In this document: piece after piece, positions 3,475 to 25,379 of the stretch | Layout of the letters: every line of letters starts with the position of its first letter | Position numbering within the stretch: position 1 is the first letter of the stretch | Assembly (NCBI GenBank): GCA_000018565.1 | Contig: CP000875.1 | Coordinates: 2,123,199-2,187,198 of the forward strand | DNA length: 64,000 bases | DNA from: Herpetosiphon aurantiacus DSM 785 | Lineage (GTDB): Bacteria; Chloroflexota; Chloroflexia; Chloroflexales; Herpetosiphonaceae | Direction of reading: 5' to 3' | Translations under genes and position numbers: made by a program | Notes under the pieces: model-generated | The model's input: only the letters and a program-made list of their open reading frames with translations | Databases searched by the model: none | Told to the model about the DNA's origin: nothing

Positions 3475-3787
3475 CTTTTTATCAAAAAAACGACATATCC
3501 TAATAGTAGAGCAGATTTTTAATCTTTTTTTAGCTACTTTAAGGAAATTTGGTAAATAAAGCATTAAAAAATGGTTACTTAAACCGATCAACCATGAATA
3601 TTAAGTTATTTATCATGAGGTTAGCTGGTTAAGCTGCCAACGTTAATCTATTTTGGTCGTGCTGATGTTGGCTAAAAACATGCTCGCCGCCTGCCAACCT
3701 GGGTGCTATGCGAATTTTTACATATGCGGTAGACTAGGGTTACGCAATGTCGCGCCGATCATTGTTTTGCAAACGTAGGGTATCGCT

Positions 3788-5578
3788 ATGCCGATGACCA
3801 ATCAATCTCTTGCCGCCCGCCGTTCATCTGCCGCAGCCAAATCAACTGCTCAAAATCCCATGCGCCTTTTATTAACCTTATATCGTGAGGATTGGGGTAA
3901 ATTAGCGCTGGCTAGCCTGATCTATATTGTTAAACATAGTCCAGTTTGGATTATGCCGCTAATTACTGCCGATATTATTAATATTATTGCCAGTCAAGGC
4001 CAAATCGGGCTTGGGCGTTTATGGTTTGATGGATTTTTGTTGTTAATTGTGTTATTGCAGAATATTCCAACTCAGTATGTTTATATTCGCTTGCTAAGCC
4101 GCGCAATTCGCCGTATGGAAAGCAAATTGCGTTCGATGTTAGCGCAGCAGCTTCAATTAATTTCAATTGGTTTTTACAATCAACGTAGTAGCGGCGTGTT
4201 GCAGGCCAAGGTACTGCGCGATGTTGAAATTATCGAGCAATTAACCCGCAATGTGTTTCAGAGTTTCCCTGCGGCAATTTTAAATTTGCTGGCAGCAATT
4301 ATTGTGGTGGCCTTTCGTTCACCATGGTTTTTAGTCTTTTTTGTGGCAACTGTGCCGCTCGCAGCAATTGTGTTGCGTACCACTCGTAATCCCATTCAAT
4401 CGAGCAATAGCGCCTTTCGTCATCAAGTTGAGCGTTTGGCAGCACGCTTGAGCGAAATGATCCAACTGATTCCGATTACTCGTGCTCATGCCGCCGAAGA
4501 AGAAGAAATGCGCAAACTTGATCGGCGCTTGGTGCAATTTCAACATGCTGGGTTGCGCCTCGATGCGGTCAATTCACTATTTGGGGCGGCTTCATGGGTC
4601 AGCTTCAATCTGTTCAATGGCTTGTGTTTAGTCGTTGCTGCTTGGGCTTGCTACACCCAATTTTTGCCCTTGGCTGTGGGCGATGTGGTTTTGATGACCA
4701 GCTATTTCTCAATTTTGACTGGCGCAGTGATGGAATTAGCCAACCTTGCACCCCAAATTAGCAAAGGCTTGGAATCGGTCCAGTCGGTCAGCGAAATTCT
4801 GGATAACGATGATATTGAGGATAACGAAGGCAAACAACGCCTCAATCAAGTTGCTGGGCATTTTCAATTTAATAATGTGCATTTCAGCTACCCTGATACC
4901 CAACGTTCATCGCTCTACGACCTGACGTTGGAAGTGCAGCCAGGCGAAACAATTGCCTTCGTCGGCCCATCGGGTTCGGGTAAATCGACCTTGCTTAATT
5001 TGGTAATTGGCTTTTTGCAACCCAGCGCTGGCAACATTTTGCTTGATGGTCATGATCTACAAACGCTTGATTTGCGCAGCTATCGCCGCCATATCTCGGT
5101 TGTTTCGCAAGAAACCTTGCTCTTCGATGGTTCGGTGCGCGACAATATTTGTTATGGTTTGAATGATGTGAGCGAAGCGACGATTGAGCAAGCCTTGCGC
5201 GATGCCAATGCCTTGGAGTTTGTGCTCGACATGCCCGATGGCCTCGATACGATCATTGGCGAACGTGGCACGCGGCTTTCGGGTGGCCAACGCCAGCGCT
5301 TAGCAATTGCGCGAGCCTTGATTCGCAACCCACGGGTTTTGATTTTGGATGAAGCAACGTCGGCGCTCGATAGCATCTCGGAAGGCTTAATTCAAGAGGC
5401 CTTAGAACGCTTGATGCAAGGCCGTACTACCTTTGTGGTTGCTCACCGCCTTTCGACCGTGCGCAACGCTGATCGGATTGTGGTAATTGAGCATGGCCAA
5501 ATTGTTGAGGTTGGTAGTCATCAAACCTTAATTGCCCAACACGGAGCCTACGCCCAGTTGCAAGCCTTGCAAGCCTAA
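3788..5578 (+). CDS. ABC transporter, fused permease and ATPase (type I exporter)
   Basis: 596 residues, a full half-transporter length. An N-terminal membrane domain (about residues 35-330, with hydrophobic helices such as LLLIVLLQNIP and LNLLAAIIVVAF) is followed by an ABC ATPase: Walker A GPSGSGKST, signature LSGGQRQRL, Walker B VLILDEATSALD, H-loop VAHRLSTV. It should act as a homodimeric inner-membrane exporter. Unlike the exporter at the left edge it lacks a C39 peptidase. Its substrate cannot be told from sequence. It is divergent from the graspetide-like operon, so it could be that locus's second exporter or an unrelated drug/lipid exporter. The start has only a weak TAGGG ribosome site; ATG at 3794 is an alternative. 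Confidence 0.92.
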   Translation: MPMTNQSLAARRSSAAAKSTAQNPMRLLLTLYREDWGKLALASLIYIVKHSPVWIMPLITADIINIIASQGQIGLGRLWFDGFLLLIVLLQNIPTQYVYIRLLSRAIRRMESKLRSMLAQQLQLISIGFYNQRSSGVLQAKVLRDVEIIEQLTRNVFQSFPAAILNLLAAIIVVAFRSPWFLVFFVATVPLAAIVLRTTRNPIQSSNSAFRHQVERLAARLSEMIQLIPITRAHAAEEEEMRKLDRRLVQFQHAGLRLDAVNSLFGAASWVSFNLFNGLCLVVAAWACYTQFLPLAVGDVVLMTSYFSILTGAVMELANLAPQISKGLESVQSVSEILDNDDIEDNEGKQRLNQVAGHFQFNNVHFSYPDTQRSSLYDLTLEVQPGETIAFVGPSGSGKSTLLNLVIGFLQPSAGNILLDGHDLQTLDLRSYRRHISVVSQETLLFDGSVRDNICYGLNDVSEATIEQALRDANALEFVLDMPDGLDTIIGERGTRLSGGQRQRLAIARALIRNPRVLILDEATSALDSISEGLIQEALERLMQGRTTFVVAHRLSTVRNADRIVVIEHGQIVEVGSHQTLIAQHGAYAQLQALQA

Positions 5579-17232: not shown

Positions 17233-18099
17233 TTACCCCAACGCCTCAAGCGGAATTTGCGGAATTCGTTCGAGCATGCCTTGGCCAAATACCTGCTGCA
17301 AGCCCAAATGTGGCATATGAATGTAGCCAATATGACAACCACAGGTGGCATTGGCACAAACCCGTGGTTGCAAGGCGGTTTGCCAATCAACATTGTAAAT
17401 ATTACCAATCGGCTCGCGTACAAAATGGCAGCGCCGCATCGTGCCATCGCCATCGACCGAAATCACGCTTTCACCAGTTGCACAAGCCCGCCCCTCAGAA
17501 GGATGCCGAGTGTTATTAATGGGAAACAGCGGATCAATCGCGGTCAGTTGGGTAATTTCCTCAGGGCTGTAATAGCCAACTTCGCGCTTGTAGGCATTGA
17601 TCCATAGATAAATTTGCTTGGGTAAGGCTTTACGCAATGCCGCAATTTCAGCTTGATGTTCGTGCATGCCGACAACTCCCACGCTGATCGGGATGCCACG
17701 TGTGATCGCTTCATGGCAACGCGCCAAAAAACGTTCGCGCGGCGTTTGAGTTGGATGATAGGTAGCCCACAAACCAAGCCGTTGTTTGGGGCAATCCTCG
17801 GCCCAATCCAGCCGCGCCGAAAGGTTGGTCTGGATGGCGACTTTTTGGACATGTGGCAAATTAGCCAACTCGACAATTGCCCGTTGATAGCGCCGCCGAA
17901 TCAAGGCCTCGCCCCACGGCGTAAAGAATATGCTTAATTCAAGCTGGATTTGTTGGGCGACCCAAGCCACAAAGCGTTGCAAGGCTGCTTCATCGTGGGC
18001 ATGTTCGGCAGCAGTTTCTTGATGCTTGGCAAATGGGCAATAGCTACAGCCATAATTGCAGCTCGACAACGGGCCACGATACAAAATTGCTAGTTTCAT
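17233..18099 (-). CDS. STM4011-family radical SAM protein
   Basis: 288 residues. The N-terminal radical SAM motif is Cys14-X3-Cys18-X2-Cys21 (SSCNYGCSYC), binding the [4Fe-4S] cluster that splits S-adenosylmethionine. C-terminal cysteines in RACATGES, RRCHF and CANATCGCH could hold an auxiliary cluster, as in SPASM-type peptide-modifying enzymes. It is the last gene of the cassette, and its ATG overlaps the STM4012-like stop (ATGA). Order and families match the Salmonella STM4011-STM4015 set, whose chemistry is unknown to me. The family assignment rests on the gene neighbourhood plus sequence style. Confidence 0.88.
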   Translation of the reverse strand: MKLAILYRGPLSSCNYGCSYCPFAKHQETAAEHAHDEAALQRFVAWVAQQIQLELSIFFTPWGEALIRRRYQRAIVELANLPHVQKVAIQTNLSARLDWAEDCPKQRLGLWATYHPTQTPRERFLARCHEAITRGIPISVGVVGMHEHQAEIAALRKALPKQIYLWINAYKREVGYYSPEEITQLTAIDPLFPINNTRHPSEGRACATGESVISVDGDGTMRRCHFVREPIGNIYNVDWQTALQPRVCANATCGCHIGYIHMPHLGLQQVFGQGMLERIPQIPLEALG

Positions 18100-19415
18100 C
18101 GTAGGATAAACTCCGCGCTAAGCTGACGAATCTGCGGCGAATACAACCAAGGGCCAATTAGATCTGAGCGTTCTAAACCTGCTGGAGTTAATTGATAGAT
18201 GCCATGCTGATATTCAGCCCAACCAATTTCAATTAGTTCGTTGATTTGGCTTAAATCAGCTAAAACATCGCTACCGAATTGCGCCCGATAGGCTTGCGTA
18301 TCTAGCCCACTGACCTGCAACAGCGATTGAATAACAAAGCGGCGGCGTTGCTCGGTGCTCGAAACAACACAGCCATAATCCACCTGACTCAAATCAAGCA
18401 AACTGCGCTGATTGTAATTTTGGATAATTTGGCGAACAGAACTAGCCCCAACCGCGTAATCACTGGAGTAATGCAGCTTGCGAGTGTACGAACGCGCACC
18501 AGCGCCCAAGCCCAGCATCCCATCAGTTTGGCAGCAATATCTTGGTGCTTGGCTGTCATCTGGGGCATGGGCGGCGCGAAACATGCGCATTGAAATTTGT
18601 TGATAGCCTGCTGCCAACAAGCGTTCGCGGCCAGCCCGATAGCATTCCAAGCGTAAATCATGCTCCCAACCTGTGCCCCGCCGATCCAAGCCAGTCAACG
18701 GTCGTACATACAACGGATACAAATATAATTCTTCAGGCCGCCACTGCAAGCCAATTTCCAGCGATTCAAGCCATGTTGCCACGCTTTGGTTGGGCAAGCC
18801 ATAAATTAAATCAATATTCAATGTAGGAATTTGAGCTGCGCGAACTGTGGCTAGCGCCTGCTCCACCTCAGGTCGGCGTTGGGCACGGCCAGCAGCATGC
18901 GCCTCATGATCAAGGAAGCTCTGCACCCCAATGCTCACCCGATCAACTCCTGCTTGAGCTAATATTGCCATGCGGTCGGCGGTCGCAGTGTGCGGCGACG
19001 TTTCAACCGATAAGGGAATTGCTCGTGAATTAACGCCGAGCCAGCGCTGGCTCATGCTAAAAAGCTGCTCCAATTCGCTGGCACTTAAATAGGTTGGTGT
19101 GCCGCCGCCAATCGCCATGCGACTAAACTGCACAGCCCCAAGTTCGTTGTGCAATGCTTGCATCTGAAGCTCTAAAGTGGCCAAATAGCGTTGCACCACC
19201 GATTCGTTGGGGTTGGTGGTTGTGAACAAATTGCAAAAGCCACAGCGCATTTCGCAAAAGGGAATGTGCAGATATAAAAATAATTGATCATGGGCTTCGT
19301 CGGCCCAAACCTCGCGTAATGAACGTGGCTCAAGCTGGCGATAGGCCGATTTATGTGGGTAACTATAGCTATAGCCCATGTAAGGCGTAGCATTGGCATA
19401 TTCACGCAGATGCAT
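18096..19415 (-). CDS. STM4012-family radical SAM protein (HemN-like)
   Basis: 439 residues from ATG at 19415, chosen because GGAGG lies six bases upstream; it overlaps the preceding stop by 14 bp. The radical SAM motif is Cys54-X3-Cys58-X2-Cys61 (IPFCEMRCGFC). AIGGGTPTYLSASEL, VSIGVQSF and LIYGLPNQ are shared with oxygen-independent coproporphyrinogen oxidase (HemN) and its relatives. It is probably not a haem enzyme: in this family it travels with STM4011, STM4013, STM4014 and STM4015 homologues. The substrate is unknown. Overlapping genes on both sides indicate strict co-translation. Confidence 0.9.
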   Translation of the reverse strand: MHLREYANATPYMGYSYSYPHKSAYRQLEPRSLREVWADEAHDQLFLYLHIPFCEMRCGFCNLFTTTNPNESVVQRYLATLELQMQALHNELGAVQFSRMAIGGGTPTYLSASELEQLFSMSQRWLGVNSRAIPLSVETSPHTATADRMAILAQAGVDRVSIGVQSFLDHEAHAAGRAQRRPEVEQALATVRAAQIPTLNIDLIYGLPNQSVATWLESLEIGLQWRPEELYLYPLYVRPLTGLDRRGTGWEHDLRLECYRAGRERLLAAGYQQISMRMFRAAHAPDDSQAPRYCCQTDGMLGLGAGARSYTRKLHYSSDYAVGASSVRQIIQNYNQRSLLDLSQVDYGCVVSSTEQRRRFVIQSLLQVSGLDTQAYRAQFGSDVLADLSQINELIEIGWAEYQHGIYQLTPAGLERSDLIGPWLYSPQIRQLSAEFILR

Positions 19416-20205
19416 GGGCTTCCTCCAAACTGCAATCAGCATAGGGCACAGTCCAAACCGTGGGATGAGCTAGGCGATGCCCCGAAAAACCATCTTCGCC
19501 ATAGGCTGTGCCATGATCGGAACAGATCATTAAAAAGCTTGGGTTGCGCTGCCGTAACGCAGCAAATAAGGCTGGTAACTGACGATCAACATAGCGTAAA
19601 GCCGCCGCATGGCTGGCTAAACTATCGCCTGTCGCGCCAGCCAAATAGTGGCAATTGGGTTGATGCAAGGCTGAAATATTGATAAACAAGAAGATTCGTT
19701 GCTCGGCTGGAATTGCCTGCAAACGTTCGACTGCCAAAGCCACTTGAAATTCGGTCGAACGCGGCTCGGTCACGCCCAAACGTGGCTCCCAATAGGATTC
19801 ATGGAATAAATCAGGCAGCACACAGCTTAATGCAGTTTGGCGATTGAAAAAGCCCACGCCGCCTATACAAATGGTGCGATAGCCGACCTGCGCCAAGCCC
19901 GTAACAATTTCTGGAGCATCAAAGGTAAACGTTTGCTCGGTCGTGGTTTCGCTGCCAGCAAAACGGGCTGCAAACAAGCGGCCATGCGGGCCAGGTGTGG
20001 CAGGCGTAGGCATAAAACCAGCAAACATCGCTTGATGGGCAGCATAGGTGAAGGAGCCTGGGCTATGGCGTTCTTGCCAGCCATGCGGCAACAGTGCCCG
20101 CAAATTGGGCGTGCCGCCATTCGTCCACTCAGCTACCGCCACGTCGTAGCGCAGAGTATCTAAGGTTATCAGTACAATATCGTGAGTTGGAATGTATTGT
20201 TTCAT
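19402..20205 (-). CDS. STM4013/SEN3800-family hydrolase (alkaline phosphatase superfamily)
   Basis: 267 residues. LITLDTLRYD supplies the first metal aspartate of sulfatase/alkaline-phosphatase folds, SPGSFTYAAHQ the likely nucleophile segment, and MICSDHGTAYGEDGFSGHRLAHP the second metal site (Asp-His and later His). The family cleaves phosphate, phosphonate or sulfate esters or transfers phospho-groups; the substrate here is unknown. It overlaps the STM4012-like gene downstream and is separated from STM4014 by 60 bp that contain an inverted repeat. The ribosome site is weak (GAGA). Confidence 0.87.
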   Translation of the reverse strand: MKQYIPTHDIVLITLDTLRYDVAVAEWTNGGTPNLRALLPHGWQERHSPGSFTYAAHQAMFAGFMPTPATPGPHGRLFAARFAGSETTTEQTFTFDAPEIVTGLAQVGYRTICIGGVGFFNRQTALSCVLPDLFHESYWEPRLGVTEPRSTEFQVALAVERLQAIPAEQRIFLFINISALHQPNCHYLAGATGDSLASHAAALRYVDRQLPALFAALRQRNPSFLMICSDHGTAYGEDGFSGHRLAHPTVWTVPYADCSLEEAHASA

Positions 20206-20218
20206 TAGAATCTCTGGT

Positions 20219-20303
20219 GGTTGGGGATCGGTGGTTGAGGATCGGGAATATGCTAGGCAAGAGACTTACCTGATCCCCGACCACCAACTACCAGCCCCCA
20301 CTA
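20219..20303. repeat. Imperfect inverted repeat of a dispersed G-rich element
   Basis: The arm at 20219-20247 (GGTTGGGGATCGGTGGTTG...) is mirrored by 20271-20302. The right arm supplies the last ~10 codons and stop of the STM4014-like gene. The sequence GGTCGGGGAT-AGGTAA recurs at about 17037-17053. Confidence 0.75.
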
Positions 20304-21399
20304 TTTCAGCCTCATAACTATCGAGTCCATCGACCAAGACATTTGGTAGCAAATCGCCAAAGGCATTAACTTCGCCAACCAAACAATGTTGCAGGCTATT
20401 GGCGATCAGCAAATCAACCCCAGCGTAAAGCGAGCGCTCAAAACAGGCGCTAGCCGCTTCGGCCTGTTGCCGCACAATCTGCCAAAATTCGGCTCCTAAC
20501 TGGGCTTGAACTGCCGCCAAATCGCCGCGTGGATTCAATAGATGCAGGTTGGTGATTGGCGAAGTGCTGGTGCGCACAACCGTATGTTGCGCTTTGCCCG
20601 CAATCACCAACATGCGCAAATCGTAGACCTTGCCCGCCAGCCGCGCCTTGGGAACCCATTCTTCAACATGGACTCGTTGTTGGGCCAAGGCATCAATTAA
20701 TGGTTGAATTTCGCGCAGATGGGTGTAGGTGCGCAAATTGCGTGAGTTGTACAATTGCAAGCCAGCGCTGGTTTCGACCAACTCAACCGTGGTAATTGCC
20801 TGCATTTGGCGGCCATTAGTGCGATACGCCACCACGCCCGCCGCGCTTGAGCCATGCGCCAGTTTGATAAAAACCCGTTGCCAGCCATGAGTTTGTAGTG
20901 CTGTTTGCAATTGTTCAAACGAGCCAATCGCTGGCAAACTGCGTGGCACAAGCACATCGGCTTGCGCCAATCGCGCATGGCAGGCCACTTTATCGAACAT
21001 CACGCTGATATCGGCAGGGTGCTGCAACAAGCGTACATTTAAGCTAGCTAATTGTTGCCCAAGTTGGCTTAGTAAGCGGGTGTAGCCGCGATACCATTGG
21101 CGACTACCCCACAAGCGCCCGCGCTCTTGCGGCAAATTTGCATCGATCGGCCAATGCTCAAACTCTGGTTCAGGCGTTAGTTCAGCAGCGAACCGTACCA
21201 GTTCACGATACAGTTGCTCATCCTTGCCAGGCGATTCAATCCGCACTAGCTCACTAGATTTGATCAACTCAGCCAAATCGTGTTGGCCTGCCAACAGATC
21301 GTAATAGCTAATGACGCAAGCTGGCGGCTGGCCTTGACGGGCCAAGGCCGCCTGCCACAGTGCAACTCGCCGATCATGTGGATTACCAATAACGATCAC
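20266..21399 (-). CDS. STM4014-family ATP-grasp protein
   Basis: 377 residues, GTG start at 21399 overlapping the STM4015-like stop (GTGA). ATP-grasp features: FIKLAHGSSAAGVVAYR (nucleotide loop), HVEEWVPKARLAGKVYDLRM, and the metal-binding end GVDLLI...LVGEVNAFGDLLP. ATP-grasp enzymes join a carboxylate to an amine, thiol or hydroxyl via an acyl-phosphate. In this cassette it may ligate or modify whatever the two radical SAM enzymes act on (inference). The extreme C-terminus (GAGSWWSGIR) is encoded by a dispersed repeat and is probably not part of the fold. Confidence 0.87.
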   Translation of the reverse strand: MIVIGNPHDRRVALWQAALARQGQPPACVISYYDLLAGQHDLAELIKSSELVRIESPGKDEQLYRELVRFAAELTPEPEFEHWPIDANLPQERGRLWGSRQWYRGYTRLLSQLGQQLASLNVRLLQHPADISVMFDKVACHARLAQADVLVPRSLPAIGSFEQLQTALQTHGWQRVFIKLAHGSSAAGVVAYRTNGRQMQAITTVELVETSAGLQLYNSRNLRTYTHLREIQPLIDALAQQRVHVEEWVPKARLAGKVYDLRMLVIAGKAQHTVVRTSTSPITNLHLLNPRGDLAAVQAQLGAEFWQIVRQQAEAASACFERSLYAGVDLLIANSLQHCLVGEVNAFGDLLPNVLVDGLDSYEAEIVGAGSWWSGIR

Positions 21400-22328
21400 T
21401 CACTCACCGCGATATAGCGTCGATCGTAGCGATGGGGGTCTTGTGGCTCGGAAATATCGACTTCAATCCCCAATTGTTTGAATTGCTGGGCGATTGCATG
21501 CTCGATATAGTGATAGTGCACATCAAGCAGTTTGAGTTGTTTAATCGCTGGGCAGGCCAAAAGTGCCTTCGCGCCATCGTCGCCAAGGTTGCCCAACGAA
21601 AGATCAAGCACTTCGATGCGGTTGATAATCTTGGATTGGCTAATTGCAACCGCTAAATCATCAGCAAACGAGCAATCGCGCAAGGCCAATACCTTGAGAT
21701 TGGGAAATAACTCGCCATTGAGCAATGGTTCGAGATCGGTCAGGGTGACATCGCCGCCATACCACTCGGAGCCAAGCCATAATTCGAGATGTTCTAGCGC
21801 TGGTAATTTGCCTTGCAAAATCTCCTGCACCACCCGATTGGGCAAGCCACCACTTTGAATCACCAAGGTTTTGAGTTGGGCATGCTGGCATGAACCAAGG
21901 CTCAAGCCATTGGCTCCGCGAATTGCAAAATGCTGCAAATTGGGAAATGCCGAGAGCAAGGGCGAAAGATCATCCTGCTCGATCCACGAAATTTCCGATT
22001 CTTCGCTGGTGATATCGCCGATAAATAAAGCGCGTAAATTGGGTAATTGAGCAGCGGCACTGACCAAGGTTTCAATAACTTGATCAACCGGGCCATTGCC
22101 ATCATCAAGTTCCCACCATGGACCAATCACTAAACCTGTGGTTTTTTCAACCTTGGGCAAGGCCAAAAAATCAGCAAAGCGATCAATCCAAGCCGTCTTG
22201 GTGTCATAATCATCTTCGTAGCCCAGCCCGACGCGATGTACCACGCCAGTCGATTGCAAAACACTGGGGTGATCCCAATCGGCAATATTCGATGGAGCCA
22301 GCTCCGACATCCATGGCAATTGAGCCAT
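21396..22328 (-). CDS. STM4015-family LRR protein, paralog 1
   Basis: 310 residues. The N-terminal ~90 residues include TTGLVIGPWWELDD; then leucine-rich-repeat-like units (LPNLRALFIGDITSEE, FPNLQHFAIRGANGLSLG, LPALEHLELWLGSEWYGGD, IEVLDLSLGNLGDDGAKALL). The tail ends VDISEPQ...RYIAVSE. No catalytic motif is seen; it is a likely binding partner or substrate of the neighbouring enzymes. It overlaps STM4014 by 4 bp and follows paralog 2 after 11 bp, so it belongs in the cassette operon. It is the most divergent of the four copies and occupies the standard STM4015 position. Confidence 0.88.
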   Translation of the reverse strand: MAQLPWMSELAPSNIADWDHPSVLQSTGVVHRVGLGYEDDYDTKTAWIDRFADFLALPKVEKTTGLVIGPWWELDDGNGPVDQVIETLVSAAAQLPNLRALFIGDITSEESEISWIEQDDLSPLLSAFPNLQHFAIRGANGLSLGSCQHAQLKTLVIQSGGLPNRVVQEILQGKLPALEHLELWLGSEWYGGDVTLTDLEPLLNGELFPNLKVLALRDCSFADDLAVAISQSKIINRIEVLDLSLGNLGDDGAKALLACPAIKQLKLLDVHYHYIEHAIAQQFKQLGIEVDISEPQDPHRYDRRYIAVSE

Positions 22329-22339
22329 TATTGTGCTCC

Positions 22340-23281
22340 TTATTCGCTGACCGCGATATAGCGATATTCTTCGTCGCCATCTTCATCGGCAATTTGTTGA
22401 TCGCTGACATCGCAATTAACCTCGATCGTTGGCCAGCAATCGCGCATGCCATCGCTCATATAGTGGTGATGCAAATCGAGAAATTCGAGCTTACGAATCG
22501 CTGGGCTAGTGAACAAGGCCTCGGCTCCAGCATCGCTCAGATTGCCCAACGAAAGATCGAGAATTTTGATTCGCTCAAGCATCGGGGCGTTGGCAACTGC
22601 TTGAGCCAGCACATCAGCATATTCACAATCACGCAAGGCCAAGGTTACTAAATTGGGAAAGCGCTCACCCTGCAAAATTGGTTTTAAATCGTCGATCGTT
22701 GAATTACCGCCATACTCATCGCTGCCCAACCACAGCTCCAAATGCTTAAGTGCTGGCAAATTGGCGGCGGCAACATCACGCACAACTTGCGCTGCTAAAC
22801 CACCAGTCTGAATGATCAAGGCCTTGAGCTGTTGATGCTGAATTGCGCCAAAACTAAGGTTTGAGCCACCGCGAATCGCCAAATATTCAAGCTGCGGGTA
22901 GGCAGCTAAAACTGCGGCATAATCGCCTTGCAAAATCCACGAAATTTCCCATTCATCAGAGGTAAAATCGCCGACGAACAAGGCTTTGAGCAAAGGCAAG
23001 CGTTCGCGGGCATTAACGAGGCTTTCTAAAACGCGCTCAATATCGCCATCATTGGTTGAATCGTGCCACCAGCGGCCAATTACCAAGCCCGTGGTTTGGG
23101 CTGGCTCATCGGTGGCAAGCCAAGCACTAAAATAATCCTGCCAAGTTTGGGCAGGTGCTTTGGAGCGATAATTGTATTCCAAGTGTAAGCGCACCGGATG
23201 CCCAATTGGGTCGAGTTTTAAGCGGCCATCCCAGTTGGTCAAGCTTGATTCACCAAAATGTCCCATCCACGCAAAAATCAT
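22340..23281 (-). CDS. STM4015-family LRR protein, paralog 2
   Basis: 313 residues, closely similar to paralogs 3 and 4: MIFAWMGHFGES start, TTGLVIGRWWHDST, EISWILQGDY, GGLAAQVVRD, LELWLGSDEYGGNST, ILDLSLGNLSDAGAEALF, LDLHHHYMSD, and the tail EVNCDVSDQQ...YRYIAVSE. GAGG lies five bases before the ATG. Its upstream gap (23282-23370) is homologous to that of paralog 4, so a gene-plus-leader unit was duplicated. Function unknown; cytoplasmic LRR protein of the cassette. Confidence 0.88.
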   Translation of the reverse strand: MIFAWMGHFGESSLTNWDGRLKLDPIGHPVRLHLEYNYRSKAPAQTWQDYFSAWLATDEPAQTTGLVIGRWWHDSTNDGDIERVLESLVNARERLPLLKALFVGDFTSDEWEISWILQGDYAAVLAAYPQLEYLAIRGGSNLSFGAIQHQQLKALIIQTGGLAAQVVRDVAAANLPALKHLELWLGSDEYGGNSTIDDLKPILQGERFPNLVTLALRDCEYADVLAQAVANAPMLERIKILDLSLGNLSDAGAEALFTSPAIRKLEFLDLHHHYMSDGMRDCWPTIEVNCDVSDQQIADEDGDEEYRYIAVSE

Positions 23282-23358
23282 GGATACCTCACAAATAGCA
23301 ATTGCAGGCCGATTGCGGCCTAGCTATAGCATAGCCTATTTTGTGACAAACAATGTCA
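23282..23358. repeat. Duplicated intergenic module, copy B (with TGTGACA-N5-TGTCACA palindrome)
   Basis: Read on the minus strand, this ~77-bp stretch aligns end to end with 25305-25379: a TGACATTG-TTGTCACAAA palindrome, a TATGCT block, an AGGCCG hairpin and CTATTTG just before the ribosome site. The palindrome is 23342-23360 and the hairpin (AGGCCG-N4-CGGCCT) lies at about 23306-23321. Confidence 0.8.
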
Positions 23359-23370
23359 CATAGATTGAGT

Positions 23371-24312
23371 TTATTCAGTAACGGCAGCATAGCGATGTTG
23401 CTCACCCTCATGTTCTTGGGGAATTTGTTGCTCGCTGACATCAACATTTAACCCAATTGTCGCCCAACAATCAAGCAGCTCGTTGCTCATATAGTGATGA
23501 TGCAAATCAAGAAAATCAAGGCTGCGAATGGCTTCGCTGGCGAATAAGACTTCAGCTCCCACGTCGCTCAAGTTGCCCAGCGAAAGATCGAGATAGCTGA
23601 TCTGCTCAAGAATCGGGGCATCGACCAGTGCTTGAGCCAGATCATCGGCATATTCACAATCGCGCAAACCCAAAACTGCTAAATTTGGAAAACATTCAGC
23701 CTTCAAAATTGGCTGTAAATCAGCAAGCGTCGAATCGCCACCATAGAAATCGCAGCCCAGCCATAGCTCCAAATGCTCAAGCGCTGGAAAATCGGCGGCA
23801 ACAACATCACGCACAACTTGTGCTGCCAAACCGCCAGTCTGAATGATCAAGGCCTTGAGCTGTTGATGCTGAACCGCGCCAAAACTTAACTCCGAGCCAC
23901 CGCGAATCACCAAATATTCAAGCTGCGGAAATGCGGCTAAAACTGGAGCATAATTGCCTTGGGTAATCCATGAAATTTCCCATTCTTCGTAGGTAAAGTC
24001 GCCGACGAATAAGGCTTTGAGCAAGGGCAACTGTTCGCGGGCAGCGCTGATACTGGCTAGAACTGCATCAATATTGCCAGGATCAACCTGCTCGTGCCAC
24101 CAGCGGCCAATCACCAAGCCCGTGGTTTGGGCTGGTTCATCAGTGGCGAGCCACGCATTAAAATACTCTGCCCATGGTTGAGGTGCTGATTTGGCTTCAT
24201 AATCGTATTCCAAATGCAGCCGCACCGGATGTCCAATTGATTCAAATTGTTCCTGCCCATCCCAGTTTGCGATCGTTGAGTCACCGAAATAGCCGATCCA
24301 ATCAAACACCAT
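23371..24312 (-). CDS. STM4015-family LRR protein, paralog 3
   Basis: 313 residues, the copy nearest to paralog 2 in sequence (MVFDWIGYFGDSTIANWDG, TTGLVIGRWWHEQV, EISWITQGNY, LELWLGCDFYGGDST, LDLSLGNLSDVGAEVLF). The tail NVDVSEQQ...HRYAAVTE keeps the family ending. GAGG six bases before the ATG. It follows paralog 4 after 41 bp without a module of the copy A/B type. No catalytic residues recognised. Confidence 0.87.
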   Translation of the reverse strand: MVFDWIGYFGDSTIANWDGQEQFESIGHPVRLHLEYDYEAKSAPQPWAEYFNAWLATDEPAQTTGLVIGRWWHEQVDPGNIDAVLASISAAREQLPLLKALFVGDFTYEEWEISWITQGNYAPVLAAFPQLEYLVIRGGSELSFGAVQHQQLKALIIQTGGLAAQVVRDVVAADFPALEHLELWLGCDFYGGDSTLADLQPILKAECFPNLAVLGLRDCEYADDLAQALVDAPILEQISYLDLSLGNLSDVGAEVLFASEAIRSLDFLDLHHHYMSNELLDCWATIGLNVDVSEQQIPQEHEGEQHRYAAVTE

Positions 24313-24353
24313 ACCTTACCTCTTTCTTTGGGCAACAACCACTGATATACAAA

Positions 24354-25304
24354 CTAGGCTAAGTATTCACGAATCGCGATCTCGCGTGGTTCTTCGTCTT
24401 CACCATCTTCGGAGTCTTCAACAGCTTGTTGACAGCTAACCTCAACTGCAAGCTCAATTGCCGACCAGCAATCAAGCATGGCATCACTCAGATAGTGGTA
24501 ATGCAGCACGAGCATGCTGAGTTTGCGAATTGCTGGGCTGGCAAATAAGGCTTCGGCTCCAACATCGCTCAAATTGCCCAACGAAAGATCGAGGATTTTG
24601 ATCCGCTCAAGGATTGGGGCCTGAACCAGGGCTTGGGCAAGATCATCGGCGTATTCACAATTACGTAAGGCCAAGGTTGTTAAATTTGGCAAGCCTGTGC
24701 CATTCAAAATTGGCTGCAAATCGGCTACCGTCGAATCGCCACCATGGTAGTCGCAGCCCAACCATAGCTCCAAATGTTCAAGCGCTGGCAAATTGGCGGC
24801 AGCAAGCTCGCGCACGGCTTGGGCTGGTAAGCCAGCGGTTTGCACAACCAAGGTTTTGAGCTGCTGATGTTGAACTGCACCAAAGCTTAAACCAGCGCCA
24901 CCGCGAATAACCAACGATTCAAGCTGGGGGTAGGCCGCCAAAATTGGCGCATAATTGCCTTGCCTAATCCAGGAAATATCCCATTTTTTATCAGTAACAT
25001 TGCCAATAAAGAGCGCTCTCAGTAATGGCAAGTGTTCCCGCGCGTTCGCAATATGGGCTAAAACATAGTCGGCACTCACTCGCTCAGCTGGATCATCCCA
25101 ATGCCACCAACGATCAAGCACGATGCCCGTGGTGTAGGCTGGATCTTCACCTGTTAGCCAATCATTGAAAAAAACATTCCATGGATCTGGGTCATCATCT
25201 TCGACATAAAAGCGCATAAGATAATCGTCTGGCCTAAAGTGATCCCATCCAGAGGTCTCGTTTACCGCCAATTCATCGTAGTGGTTCATCCATGAAAAGA
25301 TCAT
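24354..25304 (-). CDS. STM4015-family LRR protein, paralog 4
   Basis: 316 residues, first gene of the leftward array. It shares the blocks of paralogs 2 and 3 (TTGIVLDRWWHWDD, DISWIRQGNY, LELWLGCDYHGGDST, ILDLSLGNLSDVGAEALF) but its tail is altered: VEVSCQQ, a long acidic run, then REIAIREYLA, so the usual -VSE/-VTE end is changed and extended. The ribosome site is weak (GGGG). Copy A of the duplicated module precedes it. It may be the start of the cassette transcript, or be read from the transporter upstream. Confidence 0.86.
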   Translation of the reverse strand: MIFSWMNHYDELAVNETSGWDHFRPDDYLMRFYVEDDDPDPWNVFFNDWLTGEDPAYTTGIVLDRWWHWDDPAERVSADYVLAHIANAREHLPLLRALFIGNVTDKKWDISWIRQGNYAPILAAYPQLESLVIRGGAGLSFGAVQHQQLKTLVVQTAGLPAQAVRELAAANLPALEHLELWLGCDYHGGDSTVADLQPILNGTGLPNLTTLALRNCEYADDLAQALVQAPILERIKILDLSLGNLSDVGAEALFASPAIRKLSMLVLHYHYLSDAMLDCWSAIELAVEVSCQQAVEDSEDGEDEEPREIAIREYLA

Positions 25305-25379
25305 ACAAACCCCAAATAGTAATGGCAGACCTCAATCGGCCTGCCATAAGCATACGTTGGTTTGTGACAACCAATGTCA
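25305..25379. repeat. Duplicated intergenic module, copy A
   Basis: Homologous to 23282-23358. The palindrome TGACA-N5-TGTCA (25365-25379) overlaps the transporter stop codon, and a GGCAGGCC/GGTCTGCC hairpin lies at about 25324-25345. It precedes paralog 4 as copy B precedes paralog 2. Confidence 0.8.

Follow-up and report, generated by a model that had tools for sequence, protein, structure and literature searches.

Introduction

RimK works on the C-terminal glutamate of a partner protein, ribosomal protein S6. LysX and ArgX are described (PMC10433800; PMC9303977) as acting on the C-terminal Glu of their own partner, LysW; one of these sources (PMC9303977) adds that in amino-group carrier proteins (AmCPs) the gamma-carboxylate of the C-terminal Glu is activated, and that the enzymes bind the negatively charged carrier. 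Here we describe a locus of Herpetosiphon aurantiacus DSM 785, contained in a 64,000-nucleotide stretch of contig CP000875.1 (the whole of which we call the window), in which an ATP-grasp ligase gene adjoins genes for proteins that mostly end in Glu. The cassette lies at 17233-25304 on the minus strand and comprises, in order of transcription, four copies of a leucine-rich repeat (LRR) gene (STM4015 copies 1-4), the ligase gene STM4014, the phosphatase-fold gene STM4013, and STM4012 and STM4011, which encode two radical S-adenosylmethionine (SAM) enzymes. This five-gene set is present in many phyla and has no known function; in the portion of the open-licence literature covered by our search, no study of the set was found, its locus names were met only as lines of tables, and no paper joined radical SAM, ATP-grasp and leucine-rich repeat. 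We propose, with a probability of about one half (0.52), that STM4014 loads the C-terminal Glu of STM4015 and that the two radical SAM enzymes and STM4013 act on the tethered group.

Results

The STM4015 proteins share a conserved C-terminal tail

We compared the C-termini of 120 STM4015 open reading frames (ORFs), which come from the window and from 9 plasmid and 80 genome loci. The ORFs were taken from stop to stop, and therefore their starts are inexact. A total of 109, including the four of the window, scored at least 200 bits with our own STM4015 profile and were considered full-length; among the 11 weak matches that were omitted, some have just a short aligned region and could be different LRR proteins. 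In the full-length set, the final residue is Glu in 103 of the 109 proteins, Arg stands six residues before the end (position −6) in 102, and Tyr or Phe occupies position −5 in 99. The linker columns directly before this tail are unconserved, the commonest residue reaching just 17-40%, and the linker is acidic, with Asp and Glu contributing 38% of its residues vs 14% in the body of the protein. A terminal Glu is likewise present in ten of the 11 weak matches; in several of these the motif is altered, for example to GDYE or GDIE in Planctomycetes. Overall, a terminal Glu was observed in 113 of the 120 STM4015 ORFs and in 58 of the 1431 other ORFs of at least 300 amino acids (aa) found in this DNA, a set with many ORFs that are not genes. 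Among 1342 pairs of STM4015 proteins with 20-30% body identity, 86% have Glu at the last tail column in both members. The commonest last residue of each of the other four cassette proteins reaches only 20-44%.

In the window, copies 2 (23371-24312, 313 aa), 3 (22340-23281, 313 aa) and 4 (21396-22328, 310 aa), all on the minus strand, end in RYAAVTE, RYIAVSE and RYIAVSE, with the tail codons at 23374-23394, 22343-22363 and 21399-21419, respectively. Their scores with the family model NF038076 are 341, 348.4 and 335.2 bits (cut-off 275); the AlphaFold2 model of copy 3 has a mean predicted local distance difference test score (pLDDT) of 90.9, and copy 4 adjoins the ATP-grasp gene. A coding pattern for the tail plus stop, MGNTWYNNNGCNGTNNNNGARTRR, has three matches in the 6.8 Mb host genome, all of them LRR copies 2-4, and its reversed control has two. 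The host genome holds no further STM4015 over the cut-off; a 407-aa LRR protein encoded elsewhere in it is a weak match and lacks the tail. Among the other ORFs of the loci, outside the named families, seven fit a loose version of the pattern and none was judged to carry the motif.

The N-terminal parts of seven STM4015 proteins were scanned; a WGR domain was present in five (Bacteroides, Myxococcus-type and Planctomycetes), HEAT repeats in one (Nostoc) and neither in one. The copies in the window have neither WGR nor HEAT matches in Pfam. A family member from Bacteroides fragilis (Q64V53) has been solved as PDB 2ra8 (profile E 2.9e-76, template modelling score 0.78); it is an uncharacterised structural-genomics entry whose title names no function. 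As a separate observation, a Calothrix plasmid (L026, 2014-3288) encodes an STM4015 protein with the tail RYCSVAE, and no STM4011 match was found on the same record.

Copy 1 carries an extended tail

Copy 1 (24354-25304, minus strand; 316 aa, 294.7 bits) ends in REIAIREYLA, that is, in REIAIRE followed by YLA. An extension of three or four residues after the motif is found in copy 1 of each of the five Herpetosiphon genomes examined; the Glu is internal in four of them and replaced by Gly in H. giganteus. A similar extension was found in one detached copy of another family (L174) and in one cyanobacterial copy (L135). The ratio of nonsynonymous to synonymous substitution rates (dN/dS), calculated with some dS values near 1, was 0.18-0.30 for copy 1 and 0.07-0.18 for copy 2 (ten pairs each), and 0.04-0.10 for copies 3 and 4 (six pairs each). 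Copy 1 is still under purifying selection, less strongly than the other copies.

The modelled fold of STM4014 is closest to ArgX and LysX, with RimK nearly tied

STM4014 (20266-21399, minus strand; 377 aa, GTG start) scored 407.2 bits with NF038074 (cut-off 175), and its AlphaFold2 model has a pLDDT of 94.6. When this model was compared with solved structures using Foldseek, rows 1-7 were ArgX/LysX chains of three entries, 3vpb (ArgX with LysW), 3vpd (LysX) and 5k2m (LysX/ArgX with LysW-gamma-AAA), two of which are LysW complexes. These were followed by DdlB, the graspetide ligase PsnB and RimK, and the graspetide ligase MdnC was also listed. Realignment with VIA-align gave Z values of 23.7 for ArgX (3vpb), 23.0 for LysX/ArgX and 22.9 for RimK. 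In a sequence profile search the LysX chains also came first, weakly (E 4e-4, no single stretch passing alone), while among the NCBIfam models LysX_arch matched with E 0.11 and rimK_fam with E 1.1e-5 and 25 bits, below its cut-off of 143.4. The window protein has GSW close to its C-terminus; this was considered as a trace of the GSWGR of LysX and treated as chance, given that GSW occurs in 5 of 49 relatives and GSWGR in none.

The ligase and the LRR protein belong together

The genes for STM4014 and STM4015 are adjacent in 57 of the 58 loci that hold both. The partial correlation between the distances of these two proteins, given the other three genes, was 0.53, a value reached by 0 of 500 permutations, which ignore shared ancestry; this analysis included 62 sources with all five genes. 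The corresponding values for STM4015 were −0.07 with STM4012, −0.18 with STM4013 and 0.11 with STM4011 (19 of 500 permutations), the last rising to 0.26 without two divergent loci. Additionally, one genome of the class (G097) has STM4014 and STM4015 without the other three genes over the cut-off, its LRR frame being broken as assembled. From their adjacency and co-divergence, the ligase and the LRR protein belong together.

The remaining enzymes of the cassette

STM4011 (17233-18099, minus strand; NF038073, 411.1 bits, cut-off 200) has the CxxxCxxC motif plus five further Cys, each conserved in 87 of 87 relatives. The extra Cys look like the auxiliary set of SPASM/twitch proteins; there was no Pfam SPASM match to STM4011, and no relative was found among solved structures. 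STM4012 (18096-19415, minus strand, with ATG 19415 assumed as the start; NF006067, 604.4 bits, cut-off 380) has as PDB relatives HemN (1olt, 3.4e-21) and the methyltransferase NocN (9p2u, 1.5e-17), and it remains under the NCBIfam cut-offs for HemW/HemN (hemN_rel, 157.3 vs 205.4; hemN, 133.4 vs 324.95). STM4013 (19402-20205, minus strand; 267 aa; NF038075, 416.4 bits, cut-off 250) shows the conserved Asp/Thr/His metal-site pattern of the alkaline phosphatase superfamily.

Anaerobic sulfatase maturases oxidise Cys or Ser. Since STM4013 matches Pfam Sulfatase (5.3e-10) and STM4011 matches, very weakly, an anaerobic sulfatase maturase model of NCBIfam (E 0.021), we evaluated whether STM4011 could be the anaerobic maturing enzyme of a sulfatase-like STM4013. 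The place expected for the nucleophile of STM4013 is occupied by Thr, and not by Cys or Ser, in 74 of 74 relatives, and is invariant in the alignment, which makes a formylglycine sulfatase unlikely; this explanation is highly improbable and was rejected. PADLOC, in turn, returned weak matches only, of viperin models to both radical SAM proteins and of PDC-M51A to STM4012 (8.9e-8); a defence role was not adopted, and we take these matches as general radical SAM similarity.

Organization of the locus

All eight genes were found where the first-pass annotation had placed them, on the minus strand, and its assignment of the set to the STM4011-STM4015 families was confirmed by NCBIfam profile search, in which each of the eight proteins exceeds its curated cut-off. 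The Pfam LRR and ATP-grasp models were matched below their own cut-offs by the window proteins; the LRR and ATP-grasp fold assignments rest on NCBIfam, structure models and solved relatives. The closest named relatives of STM4011 are from Herpetosiphon (93% identity). The genes of the cassette stand in the order usual for this set. Downstream of the cassette lies a glycogen synthase-like gene, and upstream of it a YidE/AspT-type antiporter gene. The overlapping starts and stops that had been reported are present in the sequence: ATGA at 18096-18099, 14 bp at 19402-19415 (given the STM4012 start at ATG 19415) and GTGA at 21396-21399. The strict coupling that had been read from them fails in part: STM4014 and STM4013 are separated by 60 bp, successive LRR genes by gaps of 11, 89 and 41 bp, and there are two likely transcription units. 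Among relatives, the ligase-LRR junction is the constant one, whereas STM4014 directly neighbours STM4013 in only 36 of 58 loci; in 13 the two genes are encoded on opposite strands, for example in Myxococcus and Verrucomicrobium.

A pattern scan revealed an operator-like inverted repeat, TGTGACA-N5-TGTCACA, before copy 3 (23340-23358, minus strand), and a repeat of the same type, with one arm change, before copy 1 (25361-25379, minus strand). These are two matches in the window vs 0.05 expected, and the fixed pattern has two in the whole 6.8 Mb genome, nowhere else. The core repeat before copy 1 is kept in two loci in which copies 1-2 stand apart from the cassette (L168 and L170); the one before copy 3 is kept in L031, whereas in L169 the repeat before copy 3 is imperfect, as are both repeats in L030. 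The like repeats before copies 3 and 1 suggest two putative transcription units that answer to one regulator. A promoter scan gave fewer promoter-like (3 vs 10.4) and terminator-like (6 vs 11.5) sequences than shuffled DNA and was not used.

Distribution, copy number and neighbouring genes

A scan for STM4011, with one genome per species, yielded at least 549 relatives, from which the best 80 loci were kept; because of this selection, the loci lean towards the lineage of the window. According to the record titles, they belong to Chloroflexota, Actinomycetota, Acidobacteria, Abditibacteriota, Planctomycetota, Cyanobacteria, Myxococcota, Armatimonadetes, Verrucomicrobia, Bacteroidota and Pseudomonadota, and plasmid records extend the list to, among others, Deinococcus, Paenibacillus, Bacteroides and Salmonella. 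All 13 records of the plasmid collection with STM4011 also hold STM4015. Among 158 genomes of the class, STM4011, STM4012 and STM4013 were each over the cut-off in 10, STM4014 in 12 and STM4015 in 11; the 10 genomes with STM4011 also have STM4014 and STM4015 over the cut-off, in agreement with the expectation that the genes mostly occur together. The five genes are present in 56 of the 80 loci; of the 47 loci that have 8 kb of flanking sequence on either side, 35 contain all five. There is no nearby LRR gene in 18 of the 80 loci. When 15 genomes of this group were searched, 14 had some LRR-family match and just 6 had one over the cut-off; many of the weak matches are general LRR proteins.

At least two STM4015 genes are present in 26 of the 80 loci. 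In the STM4015 tree, whose bootstrap had not settled, the Herpetosiphon copies group together (12 rows, support 100/96), and separate duplications appear in cyanobacteria, Streptomyces, Deinococcus, Myxococcus and Planctomycetes. Multiple copies are thus less exceptional than the first-pass annotation had supposed when it called the expansion unusual; yet few loci (4 of 80) have four or five. The usual set has one or two LRR genes, whereas that of the window has four, one of them with an extended tail, in two likely transcription units. Two other genomes of the genus have copies 1-2 beside an antiporter-like gene on another contig, with copies 3-4 staying with the enzymes. The Salmonella plasmid cassette has the same gene order with a single LRR gene, and no near match to it was found among 5,426 E. 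coli genomes.

The flanking ORFs were clustered. The largest cluster, spanning 49 loci, proved to be mixed and was not considered further; a peptidase could therefore be hidden in it. The only clean wide cluster that was recognised corresponds to a haloacid dehalogenase (HAD)-type hydrolase, read as such by eye and without a family scan, which is encoded directly before STM4013 in eight loci (L053, L049, L056, L060, L061, L054, L067 and L083); in the Salmonella plasmid, a Cof-type HAD gene follows STM4011. The first of these loci, L053, is titled Comamonas and has LRR genes that nest among those of Myxococcus; the record may be misnamed or mixed. DUF6745 and a protein of ~110 aa are encoded side by side wherever both occur among the 80 loci (29 of 29); each of these 29 loci also has the five cassette genes, and the pair is possibly a functional partner of the cassette; in the genome of the window the pair is present but unlinked (L171, G000:C1:3660000-3668000, 3596-5072). 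In Bacteroides finegoldii (L024, 7745-10685), the annotated STM4014 gene is just ~365 bp away from the STM4011 gene; short segments between them match STM4013 and STM4012, and this cassette looks shortened or broken.

Discussion

The resemblance of STM4014 to ligases that attach groups to Glu suggests that the gene set may build something on STM4015. In the mechanism that we propose, the STM4015 proteins would be carriers or targets, or else permanently modified proteins, and would present their C-terminal Glu on an acidic arm, preceded at −6 by a constant Arg. STM4014 would activate this Glu with ATP and join to it, through an amide, an amine-bearing molecule, probably a small one, as LysX/ArgX do on LysW. 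The tethered group would subsequently be altered by the HemN-like STM4012, by STM4011 with its extra conserved Cys, and by the phosphatase-fold STM4013, and the product might either be released or be kept on the protein. The several LRR copies of a cassette would serve as parallel carriers or targets; copy 1 would not be loaded in the usual way, because its Glu is no longer terminal. The first-pass annotation had put forward the LRR protein as substrate or scaffold, and the conservation of the tail supports this idea and provides a specific candidate site, the C-terminal Glu. Its further suggestion that the LRR part is the specificity element remains unproven, since it is the tail that varies least in the protein, and in one of the four copies this tail is altered.

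Several observations weigh against this mechanism. In the open-licence literature covered by our search, no biochemistry on any of the five proteins was found. Six of the 109 full-length STM4015 proteins do not end in Glu, namely copy 1 of the window and of two Herpetosiphon species, two Calothrix-type copies that end in Gly, and one Nostocaceae copy. Conserved C-termini are also present in DUF6745 and the associated ~110 aa protein, and for this reason C-terminal conservation alone is no proof of modification. The tail pattern has a control that occurs twice, so its three matches in the genome are not many, and their weight lies in all of them being LRR copies. In the model of copy 3, the tail is placed with fair confidence (93 and 80 in the last blocks), and hence it may pack on the LRR instead of hanging free. 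The partial correlation of STM4014 with STM4015 falls to 0.33 without the two divergent Planctomycetes loci (a third locus named as divergent, L051, was not among the 62 sources), and that of STM4014 with STM4012 is as high (0.47-0.48). By Z value, RimK and LysX are close to a tie as relatives of the modelled STM4014; together with the presence of PsnB and MdnC in the same list, this leaves the reaction unfixed by the fold. No recurrent peptidase that could release a product was recognised among the listed flanking clusters, which were inspected by eye, without a family-model scan; seven annotated plasmid stretches with the cassette include one S41 peptidase and no product name like LysZ, LysY, LysJ or LysK, genes of this kind not having been searched for elsewhere. 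Finally, of the two motifs through which LysW and LysX pair, EDWGE is found in 0 of 53 STM4015 proteins and GSWGR in 0 of 49 STM4014 proteins, which indicates a likeness in the way of working and not membership of the LysW system; by these motifs and the missing zinc-site Cys, STM4015 is not a LysW homologue.

Some of these observations would be expected if STM4014 worked as RimK does, attaching either a prosthetic group or at least one amino acid to the terminal Glu, with the addition retained as a functional end and finished by the radical SAM enzymes. The proximity of RimK to LysX in the fold ranking (Z 22.9 vs 23.7), the rimK_fam match and the apparent lack, on inspection by eye, of a recurrent peptidase near the cassette are all consistent with this idea, and so is the fact that the LRR copies are under purifying selection and, in some genomes, apart from the enzymes, as proteins with a job of their own would be. 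The acidic arm is not explained by it alone, however, and Foldseek places ArgX/LysX ahead of RimK; we consider this alternative the closest rival, although unlikely. A further proposal is that the tail peptide itself is the substrate, as in ribosomally synthesized and post-translationally modified peptides, the radical SAM enzymes crosslinking or methylating residues such as Tyr, and STM4014 closing a ring as graspetide ligases do. Extra Cys, of which STM4011 has five that are invariant, are found in many peptide-modifying radical SAM enzymes, the −5 position is aromatic in nearly all copies, Ser, Thr or Lys occurs somewhere between −5 and −1 in 79 of 109, and two graspetide ligases appear in the Foldseek list. 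Against this, graspetides require a fixed Ser/Thr/Lys acceptor in addition to an acidic donor, and such an acceptor is missing from the last seven residues of STM4015 (no Lys in any of the 109, Ser/Thr at −1 in 51); moreover, some copies retain Arg and Glu but have another residue in place of Tyr, and the substrate would be a folded protein of 300 aa and not a short precursor. We regard this proposal as improbable.

The tail could also be a recognition peptide for docking only, by which the LRR protein recruits STM4014 or the radical SAM enzymes while the chemistry takes place on another molecule. The Arg at −6 matches the Glu in conservation, mostly hydrophobic residues separate the two, as in a binding peptide, and the confidence with which the model places the tail fits the same idea. 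Nevertheless, docking would not require a peptide whose last residue is a free Glu, as it is in nearly all STM4015 copies, and the nearest ligase folds act on a terminal Glu, and we give this explanation only a slight chance. The loading of the STM4015 Glu by STM4014, followed by radical SAM and STM4013 chemistry, is the mechanism that we favour. It could represent a new class of protein-tethered chemistry, with representatives from Salmonella to cyanobacteria, myxobacteria, Planctomycetes, Deinococcus and Streptomyces, in which an ATP-grasp ligase loads the C-terminal Glu of an LRR protein, two radical SAM enzymes and a phosphatase-fold enzyme work on the tethered group, and the LRR carrier has been multiplied repeatedly in one genome; we put this wider claim forward tentatively, at somewhat less than even odds. 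The conserved C-terminal Glu beside a ligase of LysX/RimK fold makes this cassette directly testable, and the four Herpetosiphon copies, one of them with a masked Glu, are a ready-made control set. If the mechanism is right, two uncharacterised radical SAM families would gain a substrate.

Comparison with known systems

RimK, whose fold is nearly as close to that of the modelled STM4014 as the fold of LysX, also acts on the C-terminus of a protein; it differs in that its pathway has no radical SAM enzymes and its target is ribosomal, and the rimK_fam score of STM4014 is far below the cut-off. The pearlins TglA and TmoA share with the proposed mechanism a chemistry that takes place at the C-terminus of a ribosomal carrier and, in the case of TmoD, a radical SAM step (PMC9303977). 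The pearlin systems use a peptide aminoacyl-tRNA ligase (PEARL), which depends on aminoacyl-tRNA, a short carrier and a releasing protease, none of which is among the five families of the cassette. With LysW and its ligases LysX/ArgX, and with Vzb22, the likeness lies in the terminal Glu on an acidic extension, seen in three of the four STM4015 copies of the window; with LysX/ArgX it also lies in the adjacent ATP-grasp ligase, whose nearest solved folds are those of LysX/ArgX, with RimK nearly tied. In contrast, LysW is a zinc protein of ~54 aa and STM4015 an LRR protein of ~310 aa with no conserved Cys column that could correspond to the zinc site (CxxC in 2 of 53). The AmCP pathway proceeds with a kinase, a reductase, an aminotransferase and a peptidase, whereas the cassette has radical SAM and phosphatase-fold enzymes. 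If STM4015 is loaded as we propose, a large folded repeat protein would join the known carriers LysW and TglA.

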